Shown here one piece after another: positions 30,371 to 40,643 of a DNA stretch of 64,000 nt. The DNA is from an uncultured Mucilaginibacter sp. (GTDB lineage Bacteria > Bacteroidota > Bacteroidia > Sphingobacteriales > Sphingobacteriaceae). The stretch covers positions 1-64,000 of the forward strand of contig CAJYJH010000033.1 in NCBI GenBank assembly GCA_913775265.1, read 5' to 3'. Each line of letters begins with the position of its first letter. Position 1 is the stretch's first letter. Position numbers and translations under genes: made by a program. The notes under the pieces were generated by a model that did no database searches, was not told the DNA's origin, and worked only from the letters and a program-made list of their open reading frames with translations.

Positions 30371-30751
30371 ATGAAAATATTGGTGGTAGACGATGAGGCT
30401 GATGTGCAGCCACTGTTTCAACAGCGCTTTCGTAAAGAGATACGCAACGGGGATATTTCCTTTGATTTTGCGCTTTCGGGAGAGCAGGCTCTTTCATACT
30501 TGGAAGAGCGGCATTCTGAAGTGGTGCTGATCTTATCGGACATTAATATGCCTGGCATGAGCGGATTGGAACTATTGAGCCGGATCCGCCACGATTACAA
30601 TGCACCGCCGCCACCCGTGGTAATGATGATTACTGCCTACGGCGATGATGAAAATTATCAGCAGGCCATGCAAAGCGGCGCCAACGATTTTTTAACCAAG
30701 CCGCTCGATTTTAACCTGCTCAAAGAAAAACTTAAAACACTTGCAGAATAA
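30371..30751 (+). CDS. Single-domain response regulator (CheY-like)
   Basis: 126 residues, receiver domain only: acidic residues DDE at 7-9, phospho-acceptor Asp 57 in LILSDINMPGMSG, Thr in MITAYGDD, Lys in FLTKPLD. No output domain. Its stop codon overlaps the start of the receiver-cyclase gene by one base. It probably relays or buffers phosphate from the upstream kinase. Confidence 0.93.
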   Translation: MKILVVDDEADVQPLFQQRFRKEIRNGDISFDFALSGEQALSYLEERHSEVVLILSDINMPGMSGLELLSRIRHDYNAPPPPVVMMITAYGDDENYQQAMQSGANDFLTKPLDFNLLKEKLKTLAE

Positions 30752-31794
30752 TGGCCAAAATACTGGTGGTAGATGACGAAGAAGACCTGGAAGTGCTGGT
30801 AAAGCAAAAATTCAGGCGAAAGATACGCGAGAATGTATACGAGTTTGTTTTTGCCCGCAATGGCGAAGAAGCCCTGCAAAAGGTAAAAGAACATCCTGAC
30901 CTGGATATTATCCTTTCTGATATTAATATGCCGGTGATGGATGGGCTTACATTGCTCGGCCATTTACCCGAAGCCAACCCAATGTTAAAGGCAGTTGTAG
31001 TATCAGCCTATGGCGATATGCAAAATATCCGCATGGCCATGAATCGGGGAGCGTTTGATTTTATATGTAAGCCGGTAGATTTCGAAGATCTGGAGGTAAC
31101 CATGCAGAAAACCATCGATCACGTAAGGCAACTGCAGGAAACCATCAAGGCTATTAAAGAGAATAATATCCTGAAGATGTACGTAGATGAAAATGTGCTG
31201 AATTTTATGACGCATAAGGAATTTGAAAGTAGTCTGCTGAAAAACGAGGTATTAAACGCTACGGTATTATTTGTTGATGTTTGTGGCTTTACCTCCATTA
31301 CAGAGCAAATACCAGCCAACACCGTAGTCACCATTCTAAATGAGTTATTTGATAAAATTGTAAAAGAAATAATAGCCCAGGGCGGCCATGTAGATAAATT
31401 TATGGGTGATGCTGTAATGGCAGTATTCCGCGGCGATTATCACTTAGACCGCGCTATTGATGCAGCGTTAACTATTAAAGATCAATTGGGCGACACAGTA
31501 GAGATTAACACCGGAACGCTCAATTATAAGCCGCAGGTATCCATAGGTATCAACACTGGCGAAATGGTATCAGGCAATATCGGGTCGGCATCACTAAAAC
31601 GTTTGGATTACACGGTAATCGGCGATGTAGTAAACCTGGCACAACGACTACAGTCGGCTGCTAAAGCGGGGCAGATATTGATCAACGACGATACCTACCA
31701 AAAAGCTAAAGCCTCTTTTAGCTGCCAAAAGATAGGAGAGGTATCTCTTAAAAATAAGGCGAACCCAGTTATGGTTTATGAAGTGCTTGAGTAG
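30751..31794 (+). CDS. Receiver-class III nucleotidyl cyclase
   Basis: 347 residues. Receiver domain 1-120 (phospho-acceptor Asp 57 in ILSDINMPVMDG), helical linker, then a cyclase homology domain from about 168. All catalytic positions are present: metal Asp 176 (FVDVCGFT) and Asp 220, Lys 216 in VDKFMGDAVMA, LDYTVIGD (286-292), Asn 295 and Arg 299. Lys with Thr/Asp at the base-recognition sites favours adenylate over guanylate cyclase. Product would be cAMP controlled by phosphorylation. A symmetrical terminator follows. Confidence 0.92.
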   Translation: MAKILVVDDEEDLEVLVKQKFRRKIRENVYEFVFARNGEEALQKVKEHPDLDIILSDINMPVMDGLTLLGHLPEANPMLKAVVVSAYGDMQNIRMAMNRGAFDFICKPVDFEDLEVTMQKTIDHVRQLQETIKAIKENNILKMYVDENVLNFMTHKEFESSLLKNEVLNATVLFVDVCGFTSITEQIPANTVVTILNELFDKIVKEIIAQGGHVDKFMGDAVMAVFRGDYHLDRAIDAALTIKDQLGDTVEINTGTLNYKPQVSIGINTGEMVSGNIGSASLKRLDYTVIGDVVNLAQRLQSAAKAGQILINDDTYQKAKASFSCQKIGEVSLKNKANPVMVYEVLE

Positions 31795-31828
31795 CATTAT
31801 AATTAAAAACTCTTTGCAATAATATAAT

Positions 31829-31868
31829 AAAAAGCGGCGTACATCTTTAAAAATGTACGCCGCTTTTT
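31829..31868. terminator. Terminator of the kinase-cyclase operon
   Basis: 16-bp perfect arms (AAAAAGCGGCGTACAT and complement) with an 8-nt loop; symmetrical, so it may also serve the convergent exosortase gene. Confidence 0.85.
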
Positions 31869-31951
31869 ATTGCAGGTGAATAGTAATTACAGCAACATTA
31901 TTCAAGTAACCTGCGCTTTGTTCTATTGGCATGTCATTAAATTACAATAAA

Positions 31952-32533
31952 TTAAATAGAACATCGGCTTTCAATCACTGCTTTACGGACATTACCCATG
32001 AGGTACCTATACCATAAGGTACAAATAAAGCTGTACACTATAATAGTAAATATGTAATGATGAATAATATTAAAGTAAGTTATTTCATGAAATTTAAGGT
32101 AAGACAGGATAGTGCATCGCAATAAGTTGATTGAAAAAATACTGAGCAATCCTAATGTAATAAATGCAAGCGTAGATTTGTTTTTAAACGGGAAGCACAA
32201 GACAAAGCCAACATATAAAACGTATAGTTCAAACCCATTACAACCATCTAAGATGAATATATTTAAGTCGCCATCTATAAACACCGAAGATGTTAGTGTA
32301 TCATGAACAGCTTTTACAGAATGACCTGGTAGTATAAACTGCACTAAGCTGGCAGTGAGCATTCCCAAATTACGTGTCAGGATGGCATCTATGATACGAT
32401 AGGGCTGCAATATAAAGGCATAAATTAAACTCCATAAACTGTAAAAAGCTGCAGCTTTGATCATAAACAACTTAATAGGTTTAGGAATGCCTTTAGTTTT
32501 TCTTCTGTCTCTGTGCGGGCTGGCAAATTCCAT
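31952..32533 (-). CDS. Exosortase/archaeosortase family protein
   Basis: A 193-residue membrane protein with about five hydrophobic segments. The three invariant exosortase residues are in place: Cys 98 in LDGCNGFELYVLY, Arg 139 in INLLRCTILSYL, and His 158/159 in NIIHHYIFTI. Exosortases are thought to cleave C-terminal CTERM tails and anchor or transfer the protein. This one is small, without an EpsI domain and without polysaccharide genes nearby. The small protein encoded upstream (32807-33094) has a matching C-terminal tail. The region is AT-rich compared with its neighbours. Confidence 0.85.
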   Translation of the reverse strand: MEFASPHRDRRKTKGIPKPIKLFMIKAAAFYSLWSLIYAFILQPYRIIDAILTRNLGMLTASLVQFILPGHSVKAVHDTLTSSVFIDGDLNIFILDGCNGFELYVLYVGFVLCFPFKNKSTLAFITLGLLSIFSINLLRCTILSYLKFHEITYFNIIHHYIFTIIVYSFICTLWYRYLMGNVRKAVIESRCSI

Positions 32534-32806
32534 ATACTATAGTTTTTAAGTGTTGCCGGTTGATCCGTAGAAAAAGTCTTAATGGAGAGAATTTGCTTTT
32601 GTTATTTGCTTGCTTACTCAGGTAAGTCCAAATAGCTAACATTGCAGTAATTAAAACAATTAGTTCTCCGTTATATCAGTATAAAACCGCAAAATTTTTA
32701 ATTAAGCTAATTAAGGTAAAAATAGACGAACGTGCCTCTTGTGCTTGTTTGCTTACTGAACTATTAAAAGATTTACTGCTTTAATATGTAAATAATATAA
32801 AATTAC

Positions 32807-33094
32807 TTAATTATAGGTGCTCACCTCATGATCATAAAAATGCCATCTCTTTAAGGTATATACACCCAAAATTAAGCCTGCAACTATTAAGGCTATAAGC
32901 CCTTTATTAATAGGCGTTCCACCACAAAATGTTTGGTTTTGAAGTTGAGTACCCAGGCAGCGACAGCAGTTAGCTTGTTGACCATGAGGGGCTTGAGAAC
33001 ATCTGGTGGCAGGAGGGAAGCTGCCGCAATTTTGTGCCTTGGTTGGAAAAATGGCAAGTAATACCAACAGCATCAATAAAAACGCTTTTTTCAT
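32807..33094 (-). CDS. Small Cys-rich protein with exosortase-type tail
   Basis: 95 residues: signal peptide 1-20 (ending FPTKA), a mature part of about 40 residues with six Cys (23, 32, 43, 44, 46, 57), then PINKGL at 61-66, a hydrophobic stretch with Ala-Gly (67-80) and the basic LKRW (81-84). This tripartite tail resembles the PID-CTERM type of Bacteroidota sorting signal, although 11 polar residues follow the basic patch. It lies 273 bases upstream of the exosortase gene on the same strand and is its likely substrate. A -7 element and a 12-bp dyad lie upstream. Confidence 0.75.
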   Translation of the reverse strand: MKKAFLLMLLVLLAIFPTKAQNCGSFPPATRCSQAPHGQQANCCRCLGTQLQNQTFCGGTPINKGLIALIVAGLILGVYTLKRWHFYDHEVSTYN

Positions 33095-33119
33095 ATCAAT
33101 TAGGGGTTGATTTGTAGCG

Positions 33120-33127
33120 CAAATCTA
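33120..33127 (-). promoter_or_regulatory. Candidate -7 element of the exosortase-substrate gene
   Basis: TAGATTTG on the minus strand fits TAnnTTTG, 25 bases before the ATG. The -33 position falls inside the dyad at 33143-33178. Confidence 0.5.
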
Positions 33128-33142
33128 CGATGCGACTATTTT

Positions 33143-33178
33143 ATTTAACGTTGACATTGTCAGATTTCAACGTTAAAT
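33143..33178. promoter_or_regulatory. 12-bp dyad, operator candidate
   Basis: ATTTAACGTTGA and TCAACGTTAAAT are perfect inverted repeats around a 12-base centre that itself contains GAC-att-GTC overlap. The left arm covers the -33 region of the adjacent promoter, a position typical of a repressor or activator site. Confidence 0.5.
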
Positions 33179-37772: not shown

Positions 37773-38963
37773 ATGAGCACAATTACTTACCCGGCTACCC
37801 CAGTCGAACTCAAAATATCGGCTGATAAAACCGGTACCTTGCCTTTTTATATCTATGCAGTCGTTTTTGCATCGTTCAGCATTGTGGTAGGTTTGGTATG
37901 GGATATTTCCTGGCACATGAGTATCGGTCGTGATGGTTTATTTTCGCCTCCCCATTTGGCTACTTACCTGGGGGCCGTTACTGCCGGCCTGTTTTCGGGT
38001 TACCACGTTTTGCGGCTCACTTTTGCCGGTCGCGCTGCTGAAAAGCAGGAGTCTGTACGTTTTTGGAAAGTTTTCTACGGTTCGTTAGGAGCGTTGTTTT
38101 GTATTTGGGGCGCCTTTACCATGATCACGTCTGCCCCCTTCGACGACTGGTGGCACAACACTTTTGGCCTGGATGTACAGATACTTTCACCGCCGCATAC
38201 GGTGCTATTATTGGGGATGATTACTATTCAGTTTGGTGCTATGGTGAGCGTAATGGCATTGCAAAACCGCATAGGTGGTTCTGCCAATTATAACAAGCAG
38301 GCACTGGCTTGGTGCTTTACTTTATCATCAGGGTTTTTACTGGTGATGCTATTTACCATCGCCTCCGAATATCTGGACCGCCATGATATGCACTTAAGCA
38401 GTTTTTATGTGGTTAGTGCAATGTTATTCCCTTTGTTTATGGTGCCGGTATCCAAAGCGTCTACTACACGCTGGGGAGCAACATATATGGCTTTGGTGTA
38501 TATGATTTTTATGGCCGTAATGGTTTGGATATTACCGCTGTTTCCGGCCGAACCTAAACTGGGGCCTGTACAAAACCACATCACACACTATCAGAGTTTT
38601 CATTTTCCATTATTACTGGTGTTTCCGGCATTGATTATAGATATCATCAATCAGCGTGTAAAAAGCTTTTCGTTACTGAGGGCTTTATTAATTAGTGTTG
38701 CCTTTGTATTAATCATGTTTGCTGTTCAGTGGCCATTTGGTAGTTTTTTGGCCACACCTTACGCCCGTAACTGGTTTTTCGGCACCACCTCCTGGTATTT
38801 TGGGGCTGATCCTAGCTATGAATACCGTTATGCATTCGCGCCTGATAAAGTTTCGAGCGTAGACAGTATGATTAAAGGCGTAGGTATGGCTGTTGTCATC
38901 GGTACTATTTCGTCATGGTTGGGCTTGGTTTGGGGCGGTTGGATGAAATCAGTTAAACGTTAA
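37773..38963 (+). CDS. Multi-pass membrane protein with duplicated His motif
   Basis: 396 residues, about ten hydrophobic segments, no family recognised. Two copies of a motif occur near segments 1-2 and 3-4: D44xxWH48, GxD54, SPPH61 and D124xxWH128, GxD134, SPPH142, which suggests internal duplication and a metal or haem site at the membrane surface. Further His occur in HITHYQSFHF. A 5-bp hairpin with a cTTCGg loop (37749-37762) precedes the start. It lies 15 bases upstream of another His-rich membrane protein gene, so the two likely form one system. Confidence 0.7.
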   Translation: MSTITYPATPVELKISADKTGTLPFYIYAVVFASFSIVVGLVWDISWHMSIGRDGLFSPPHLATYLGAVTAGLFSGYHVLRLTFAGRAAEKQESVRFWKVFYGSLGALFCIWGAFTMITSAPFDDWWHNTFGLDVQILSPPHTVLLLGMITIQFGAMVSVMALQNRIGGSANYNKQALAWCFTLSSGFLLVMLFTIASEYLDRHDMHLSSFYVVSAMLFPLFMVPVSKASTTRWGATYMALVYMIFMAVMVWILPLFPAEPKLGPVQNHITHYQSFHFPLLLVFPALIIDIINQRVKSFSLLRALLISVAFVLIMFAVQWPFGSFLATPYARNWFFGTTSWYFGADPSYEYRYAFAPDKVSSVDSMIKGVGMAVVIGTISSWLGLVWGGWMKSVKR

Positions 38964-38978
38964 GCCGCATCTCAGTGC

Positions 38979-40643
38979 ATGAAAAAGTTTTTAATTTCTA
39001 TTGGCTTATTAATTAGTCTTGCAGTAAATGTTTGGGCACACGTTGGTAGTCCGGGTGTAACTTTCGAAGGTGATGCCGGTCCGTACAAACTCATTGCCAA
39101 TATTAATCCGCCCGATGTTATACCGGGTACAGCTGCGGTAACAGTTTATTTAGAAGGTGCAGTTAGAGGCACGCAAGTAACTGCCCGACCAGTATATTGG
39201 TCTGTTGGAGCCGACGGTACGCCCAAAGCTGATGCGGCTGAGCCATCAGTTACCGAGCCAGGCCGTTTTGATGTAAAAGTATGGTTTATGAGTACCGGTA
39301 CATCCAGTATCGAGATCACCGTTAACGGACCGCAAGGTAAGGGTACGGTGGTGGTGCCGGTAATGGCTGTGTCAACCGCTAAAAGAACCATGCCTGCTGG
39401 TTTAGGCTGGGGGCTTTTTGTCATGGCCACTTTTTTGGTTATGCTGATGGTCTCCATTATCAGCTCGAGTGTGAGCGATAGCCAGCTAAACCCTGCCGAG
39501 TCTTTAACCAAGCGTTTACGCCGCCGCAGAGTAACAGGTGCTGTGGGTGCTTTGCTCGTTTTAGGATTGATTTTGTGGGGAGGCTATTCATGGTGGAACG
39601 CCGCTGCAGCAAGCTACAATAAATATTTGTACAGGCCATTGCAGGCTAACAACACTTTTAATTCCCAAAATGGCTTGCTCAAATTTACAATTGATACCGC
39701 ACAACTTAATGAATTAAGCCGTTCGCGCCGAGGTAATATTACCCGTAAAATGAATTATCTGGTGCCAGATCATGGTAAATTAATGCACATGTTTTTGGTG
39801 AAAGCCAATGCTCTGGATGTATTTGCCCATTTGCATCCGCGCCGTGCAGATTCTGTGACATTTGTAACGCAACTACCGGAGTTGCCTGCAGGTAAATATT
39901 GGATATATGCAGACATAACCCGTTTGAGCGGTTTTGCAGAAACCATTATTGATACGCTTAATATCCCGGAAACCATATATCGCCAAGCCAGCAATCCATC
40001 GGGCTTAAACAGGGTGGCAGATGAGGATGATACCTATTTCATCACTAACGCTGTTAATGGTAAAAACTTTACCCAACCCAGTGTTAATGCTATTATGTGC
40101 GGAGCCCCTGGTGTAGAAACTAAGTTAAAAGACGGTACCTCTGCCATATGGGTACAAAAGCCAGGGCAAGAACTTAAAGCAGGCGAATTAACTGAACTTA
40201 CCTTTGAAATGCTTGATGAAAACCGTAAACCAGCTAAACTCGAGCCTTATTTAGGCATGATGGCCCATGCAGTCATTTTAAAAGACGATGGCAGTGTCTA
40301 TATCCATTTACACCCATCGGGCAGTTACTCCATGGGGTCGCAAAAAGCCCTGCTTGATCGCATGGCTTTTCATCAACCATTAGATAAATATTTACCTGCC
40401 CCAGTAGCATTTGCCGACAGCGTTAACCGCATGGTTGCCCGCCTGGATGCTATGAGCGAAGGGGAGAGAAACCAATTATTAATGGCTGGTATGGAGCATG
40501 GTAACGCTGGTGGTAATGAGCACAATGCCCATCAAATTAGTTTCCCTTACACTTTTCCGCAATCGGGTAAGTATCGTATTTGGGTGCAAACAAAGCGTAA
40601 CGGTAAAATATTAAACAGTGCATTTGATGCGGAAGTAAAGTGA
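38979..40643 (+). CDS. His-rich exported membrane protein, possibly metal-binding
   Basis: 554 residues. A signal peptide (ending NVWA, then HVGSPGV), an immunoglobulin-like region (about 25-135), two membrane segments (about 141-164 and 186-206), and a large periplasmic part with two repeats of the type MxH-hydrophobic-HLHP: MHMFLVKANALDVFAHLHP (269-287) and MAHAVILK with YIHLHP (428-446). The repeats resemble heavy-metal-associated exported proteins, so copper or another metal is the leading guess. The end has HGNAGGNEHNAHQ. It forms a pair with the upstream membrane gene. Confidence 0.65.
   Translation: MKKFLISIGLLISLAVNVWAHVGSPGVTFEGDAGPYKLIANINPPDVIPGTAAVTVYLEGAVRGTQVTARPVYWSVGADGTPKADAAEPSVTEPGRFDVKVWFMSTGTSSIEITVNGPQGKGTVVVPVMAVSTAKRTMPAGLGWGLFVMATFLVMLMVSIISSSVSDSQLNPAESLTKRLRRRRVTGAVGALLVLGLILWGGYSWWNAAAASYNKYLYRPLQANNTFNSQNGLLKFTIDTAQLNELSRSRRGNITRKMNYLVPDHGKLMHMFLVKANALDVFAHLHPRRADSVTFVTQLPELPAGKYWIYADITRLSGFAETIIDTLNIPETIYRQASNPSGLNRVADEDDTYFITNAVNGKNFTQPSVNAIMCGAPGVETKLKDGTSAIWVQKPGQELKAGELTELTFEMLDENRKPAKLEPYLGMMAHAVILKDDGSVYIHLHPSGSYSMGSQKALLDRMAFHQPLDKYLPAPVAFADSVNRMVARLDAMSEGERNQLLMAGMEHGNAGGNEHNAHQISFPYTFPQSGKYRIWVQTKRNGKILNSAFDAEVK

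Follow-up and report, generated by a model that had tools for sequence, protein, structure and literature searches.

An exosortase gene and its small upstream neighbor

The window, by which we mean the whole stretch of 64,000 nucleotides analyzed here from an uncultured Mucilaginibacter, contains two minus-strand genes that encode an exosortase (31952..32533, 193 aa) and, upstream across a gap of 273 bp, a six-cysteine precursor (32807..33094, 95 aa). The exosortase was identified from the open reading frame (ORF) list, family models, an alignment and an AlphaFold2 (AF2) model, and the precursor from the ORF list, alignments and the PID-CTERM model, with its limits placed by eye. Besides five long helices, the AF2 model of the enzyme (mean pLDDT 93) shows a segment of three strands. 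In an alignment of 49 proteins (48 of 80 fetched loci and the window), Cys98, Asn99, Asn136, Arg139 and His158 are invariant, and His159 is nearly so. The enzyme also exceeds the cut-off of the NCBIfam exosortase/archaeosortase signature TIGR04178 (32.2 bits against 23). Thus, the preliminary description was right in seeing an exosortase with a Cys-Arg-His triad (C98, R139, H158).

Against the more specific models, exosortase X, XrtF, PID-CTERM and Pfam EpsH, the two proteins scored below the cut-offs throughout. Exosortase X (NF046081) is the best-scoring model for the enzyme, with E=4.8e-36 and 124.2 bits against 170, followed by XrtF (TIGR04128), with E=2.1e-20 and 73.7 bits against 90. The Pfam Exosortase_EpsH score of 18.4 bits falls short of the gathering score of 25.7, and the gene is not listed by a search of the whole genome with this family at E up to 0.001; a tail-bearing relative, L047, likewise lies below the Pfam threshold (22.1). 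All eight other relatives scored with the exosortase X model also stay below 170 (114–141 bits), so this shortfall is not peculiar to the window locus. We file the enzyme as XrtX-like only, and its sequence suggests the short XrtX/XrtF-like kind of Bacteroidota. A fold search with the AF2 model gave no known-structure match at E <0.001 and, because a sequence search (E up to 1) likewise returned no solved relative, the mechanism discussed below rests on analogy.

The precursor consists of a Sec-type signal peptide (residues ~1–21), the six-Cys cargo (~22–59), a tail made of PINKGL, a hydrophobic stretch and LKRW (~60–84), and an 11-residue end. It therefore carries the general features of a sorting-signal protein (signal peptide, motif, hydrophobic stretch and basic end), the signal peptide and hydrophobic stretch being judged by eye. 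The sorting-signal-like tail, as delimited by models and our tail profile, comprises 28 residues from Thr60 (32834..32917, minus strand). The PID-CTERM model NF046080 matches residues 60–83 (E=0.0031) at 17.3 bits, and a six-frame search of the genome raises this to 19.5 bits, against a cut-off of 26. Three precursor homologues from two other species keep PINK and every one of the six Cys, and by eye the six Cys recur in a further protein of one of these species (G106). The exported 95-residue six-Cys protein was thus found in its place, with a sorting-signal-like tail whose motif is kept in homologues; LKRW is present but does not end the protein, since 11 more residues follow it. Comparison of the cargo with known structures gave nothing meaningful (best E 0.17), and its predicted structure is poor (pLDDT 60.6).

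Just upstream of the substrate gene lies a match (TAGATTTG, 33120..33127, minus strand) to the -7 element of Bacteroidota, which has the consensus TAnnTTTG. A second match on the same strand lies within the substrate gene at 32874, while sigma-70-type promoter matches occur at chance level. Downstream of the exosortase, a 20-pair stem-loop terminator (31826..31871) is listed for the minus strand; since the stem-loop is nearly symmetrical, it may also serve the convergent gene. Cargo and exosortase are likely to share one transcript, and a separate start for the exosortase from the match at 32874 is possible.

We used Pfam to scan 55 window ORFs and 121 ORFs flanking related loci, for which the 25 commonest families were listed, so that rarer families of polysaccharide genes may be present among them. 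None of the ten neighboring ORFs scanned matches a polysaccharide family, and two are without any match. The nearest glycosyltransferase-1 match on this contig, the one polysaccharide family searched genome-wide, is ~226 kb away. Among the surrounding genes, that at 30751-31794 joins a response regulator to an adenylate/guanylate cyclase domain. Beside it are a gene for a histidine kinase and an ORF that consists of a receiver alone and resembles the receiver domain of the fusion. Further off, two adjacent ORFs (37773-38963 and 38979-40643; 396 and 554 aa) have no Pfam match at E up to 1e-5.

Exosortases and tail proteins in the genome and among relatives

We compared the pair with the rest of its 4.9-Mb genome (G000). 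Searching with the window enzyme (E up to 0.001) returned three exosortases, namely itself, one on contig C45 (45% identical) and one on contig C8 (28%). Each has a tail protein directly upstream, and none has a glycosyltransferase-1 gene near it; contigs C45 and C8 have no match to that family in the whole-genome search. The NCBI PID-CTERM model finds four tails here, of which one, the C45 tail, is over the cut-off of 26 (26.8, and 29.9 in the six-frame search). A profile built from 21 Mucilaginibacter tails, among them those of this genome, recovers these four at E <1e-11, its next match having E=4.7. With four strong tails in 4.9 Mb, three of them adjoining exosortases, and the next match at E=4.7, the pairing is not due to chance.

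The scan for further tails thus ended with four, one of them an orphan. This fourth tail protein (106 aa, Cys-rich) is encoded on contig C29, which has no exosortase match in the search above. Proteins of this kind, 106 aa long, rich in Cys and with a PIN-type tail, are found in this genome (C29:24133-24453, spanned by L053:5633-5983) and in a second Mucilaginibacter species, G048 (L211:1276-1596), in neither case beside an exosortase. The protein is a conserved orphan substrate.

The tails fall into types. C8-type tails, with PINDH, share a mean identity of 0.26 with window-type tails (pooled over three species) and 0.26–0.29 with the window and C45 types, against 0.61–0.84 within types. The window and C45 tails are 0.53 identical, nearly as alike as window-type tails are among themselves (0.61), which disfavors a private signal for the window pair. 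The precursors of the C8-type cargo (L033:7828-8094, L036:4846-5400, L038:4885-5439), with their distinct PINDH-type tail, are 184 aa and Asn/Gly-rich in two species and 88 aa in the window's genome.

These comparisons raise a variant, compatible with the explanation we prefer, in which the four tail proteins are clients that the three exosortases have in common and the pair is not private. The similarity of the window and C45 tails (0.53), whose exosortases also group together (SH-aLRT 98), points this way, as does the C29 protein, which must use an enzyme encoded elsewhere. In addition, G106 has five strong tails and two exosortases were found in it, in a genome 84% complete. Against such sharing, the C8-type tail is clearly distinct and every enzyme retains a cargo directly upstream, and we rate it at just short of an even chance. 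The preliminary description had proposed a dedicated one-substrate system. An exosortase with an adjacent candidate substrate is indeed present, but exclusive one-target pairing is doubtful: the genome has four tails instead of a single target, one of them apart from any of its three exosortases, and a sister species has two tandem cargoes. A one-substrate system would thus be local at most.

We then asked how common the arrangement is, using 91 non-redundant loci (80 named loci, the best 80 of 104, the window and 17 Mucilaginibacter loci, less 7 duplicates). The 17 comprise every further locus, in 120 genomes of the genus, whose exosortase matches that of the window at E up to 2e-20; the next matches have E of 3e-8 and up. 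A tail protein lies near the enzyme on the same strand in 69 of the 91 loci, and 77 of 81 such tails are upstream. Within the genus, all 18 exosortases matching the window's at E up to 2e-20 adjoin a tail protein (120 genomes). The 22 loci with no tail match near the enzyme include none labeled Mucilaginibacter; in one of them (L108) the substrate is cut by the contig end with its tail visible, and in another (L132) the tail is 2.1 kb away. Strong tail matches among the 91 loci number 89, five on the other strand and three far from the enzyme. The search is partly circular and its scores are inflated, because the profile was built from tails of the same loci; in the window's genome, however, the PID-CTERM model of NCBI itself picks out the same four. 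Co-occurrence therefore held, and exosortase homologues that stand without such a small protein are confined to more distant relatives.

Across the 81 tail proteins, the median length of the mature cargo is ~40 aa, a crude estimate that takes 20 aa as signal and uses guessed starts, and 49 of the 81 have no Cys in the mature part. Glycosyltransferase-1 accounts for 5 of the 121 flanking ORFs of 36 tail-bearing loci (25 of 115 families listed). Given the median, the linkage and the flanking counts, small pairs of this kind, with a cargo of 40 aa and seldom any glycosyltransferase close by, are common. Two traits singled out in the preliminary description are accordingly real but ordinary: its estimate of a cargo of about 40 residues was right and equals the median, and the lack of polysaccharide genes holds for the ten neighbors and is shared with relatives.

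In 67 of the 91 loci (for example L032:6516-6905, L033:6853-7257 and L047:5900-6316), the gene that directly follows the exosortase downstream encodes a small hydrophobic membrane protein (~123–145 aa), the companion; eight copies scanned gave no NCBIfam family above cut-off. Some loci deserve separate mention. A second tail protein lies on the opposite strand ~1.5–1.7 kb downstream of the exosortase in L097, L106, L117, L118 and L119, which are all five loci of one clade. L041 (genome G030) has an internal TGA in the exosortase frame beside two open tail proteins, and is likely a pseudogene or else an assembly error. L087, labeled Verrucomicrobia, has the same kind of pair as Bacteroidota, by transfer or from a mis-binned contig.

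The six-Cys clade and a probably reduced locus

A quick exosortase tree (90 rows, the 91 loci less L041, with SH-aLRT support only) groups the window enzyme with enzymes of G106 and G048, two other Mucilaginibacter species (support 100), the next to join being the C45-type enzymes of G000 and G048 (98). This clade comprises five loci in three species. Its six cargoes all have six Cys, as does no other of the 81. Order-wide, in a draw of 400 genomes that lacked G106, with at most eight candidates scored per genome, clade members of G000 and G048 reach 311–342 bits and all others at most 127. In the collection scan (best 80 of 104), G106 is the only clade locus, at 70%, with the next at 36%. Of 149 genomes of the genus, three have the six-Cys cargo; the search returned five at E up to 0.01, but in two of these it hit nothing beyond weak matches in the tail region or chance matches. 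In the family, the cargo occurs in 2 of 301 genomes drawn. The orphan tail proteins on C29 and on contig C258 of G106 are also Cys-rich.

The site is shared by the three species, with DUF218, DUF72 and AlkB-like genes on one side and the response-regulator/cyclase gene on the other, of which G106 retains the last 20 residues at a contig end. Three genomes, among 99 with an AlkB match, have the next-closest AlkB genes; one of the three keeps the AlkB-DUF72 arrangement and none the response-regulator side. In G106 the locus has five genes, the companion (opposite strand), two tandem six-Cys cargoes, the exosortase and a MauE-type gene. G048 has one intact cargo and a second one broken by stops and a frame change (L034:4577-4830), and the MauE and companion genes are absent from both the window and G048 loci.

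The 273-bp gap in the window contains a possible relic of a second cargo tail (32610..32672, minus strand), which is suggestive only. It has the right place and strand for the tail of a lost cargo, in a weak match: with the G106 sub93 query, the DNA score is reached by 2 of 500 shuffles and the protein score by 9 of 500, while the other two DNA queries give 22/500 and 122/500, and the best DNA match lies outside the tail part. The simplest reading of these sequences would be that the lineages of the window and of G048 have lost a cargo and genes; alternatively, G106 may have gained them. Thus, the pair called minimal does have two genes, but probably represents a reduced, derived state, given the five genes of G106 and the decayed cargo of G048.

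Such loss could also mean that the locus as a whole is decaying, with the tail a mere membrane anchor and the adjacency to the exosortase historical. The second cargo has decayed in G048 and is absent from the window, and MauE and companion genes are missing from both. However, the cargo and enzyme frames are open in all three species and the tail motif is kept. Saturation of dS left dN/dS uncomputable in most comparisons; where it could be computed it is 0.07–0.24, and we consider general decay very unlikely.

MauE acts in disulfide formation. A 300-aa MauE/DoxX protein is encoded in three of the clade's five loci, the window locus being without it; its membrane part has a conserved CGC, its C-terminal part CFHC. 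It lies beside no other of the 91 loci at E up to 0.01, and its three loci all have a six-Cys cargo; as all cases fall in one clade, this association is suggestive but not phylogenetically independent. The C-terminal part gave no family or structure match, and may be thioredoxin-like, judging from CFHC only. The gene hints at oxidative folding before sorting. We tentatively put forward, as a doubtful rather than a favored idea, a clade cassette in which the MauE/DoxX CxxC protein would oxidize the six-Cys cargo before the exosortase attaches it, the window locus being a slimmed satellite that borrows a paralogous oxidase. Overall, the architecture of the pair is ordinary but its sub-branch unusual: the cargo is rich in cysteine, an oxidase may act as partner, and the locus has apparently been pared down to two genes.

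Proposed mechanism and comparison with known systems

We propose, with good though not full confidence, that the exosortase acts on its cognate cargo, which would be exported by Sec, cleaved near PINKGL and passed to an acceptor to reside at the surface, with helpers supplied in trans or dispensable. The 95-aa precursor would lose its signal peptide after export and be held in the inner membrane by its tail, and its six cysteines would pair in the periplasm. Cys98 might then attack at or near PINKGL to form a thioester, from which the ~40-aa peptide would pass to an acceptor and end at the cell surface; the acceptor may be a lipid amine, which has been proposed for archaeosortase A. The MauE/DoxX protein with CxxC and the small membrane companion might come from the paralogous C45 cassette or be dispensable. 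We infer cleavage and transfer by analogy with sortases and with archaeosortase A, for which there is a report of lipid attachment at the C terminus and a discussion of a thioester intermediate (PMC7157517).

The exosortase could instead only free the cargo, in the maturation of a secreted peptide (e.g., a signal or antimicrobial) with no anchoring. The cargo is tiny, Cys-rich and restricted to 3/149 genomes of the genus, as fast-changing peptides tend to be, and the ten neighbors scanned include no recognizable acceptor gene. The same neighbors, however, include no recognized immunity or exporter gene, and the transpeptidase-like residues, together with the lipid attachment described for archaeosortase A (PMC7157517), favor transfer. 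Release alone therefore seems unlikely.

The genome offers a compact setting in which to study pairing rules, with three enzymes and four short tails that fall into two or more distinguishable types. At 40 aa, the cargo is short enough for any C-terminal adduct and disulfides to be analyzed by intact mass spectrometry.

Finally, we compared the pair with known systems. Exosortase X (NF046081) and PID-CTERM (NF046080), which we take to be paired by NCBI, are the best models for enzyme and tail, and share with the window a short enzyme and a small tail protein. They differ in that the window proteins are below both cut-offs and the window cargo has six Cys. A literature search did not find the term 'PID-CTERM'. 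XrtF of Flavobacterium johnsoniae, a short exosortase, is the second-best model, and one tail-bearing relative (L060) passes TIGR04128 (94.8 against 90); XrtF has an associated protein, whereas the window locus is without a companion gene. In F. johnsoniae, a member of the same phylum, deletion of xrtF or of its neighbor Fjoh_1449 reduces sand colonization and biofilm, and that study did not identify the XrtF substrates but left them to future work (PMC10936215).

EpsH/PEP-CTERM (PMC1569441) shares the CxG and NxxR motifs and a His, and a tail made of a motif, a hydrophobic stretch and a basic end. Its third motif is HxxxG, whereas the window enzyme lacks the Gly, and EpsH has at least 8 transmembrane segments, compared with five long helices in the model of the 193-aa window enzyme. 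The window pair differs further in having no PEP motif, no glycosyltransferase-1 gene near and few targets, while 90% of EpsH are found near exopolysaccharide genes (PMC1569441). The dedicated rhombosortase/GlyGly-CTERM system likewise has enzyme and target side by side (PMC3237569) but one enzyme and one target per genome, compared with three enzymes and four tail proteins here.
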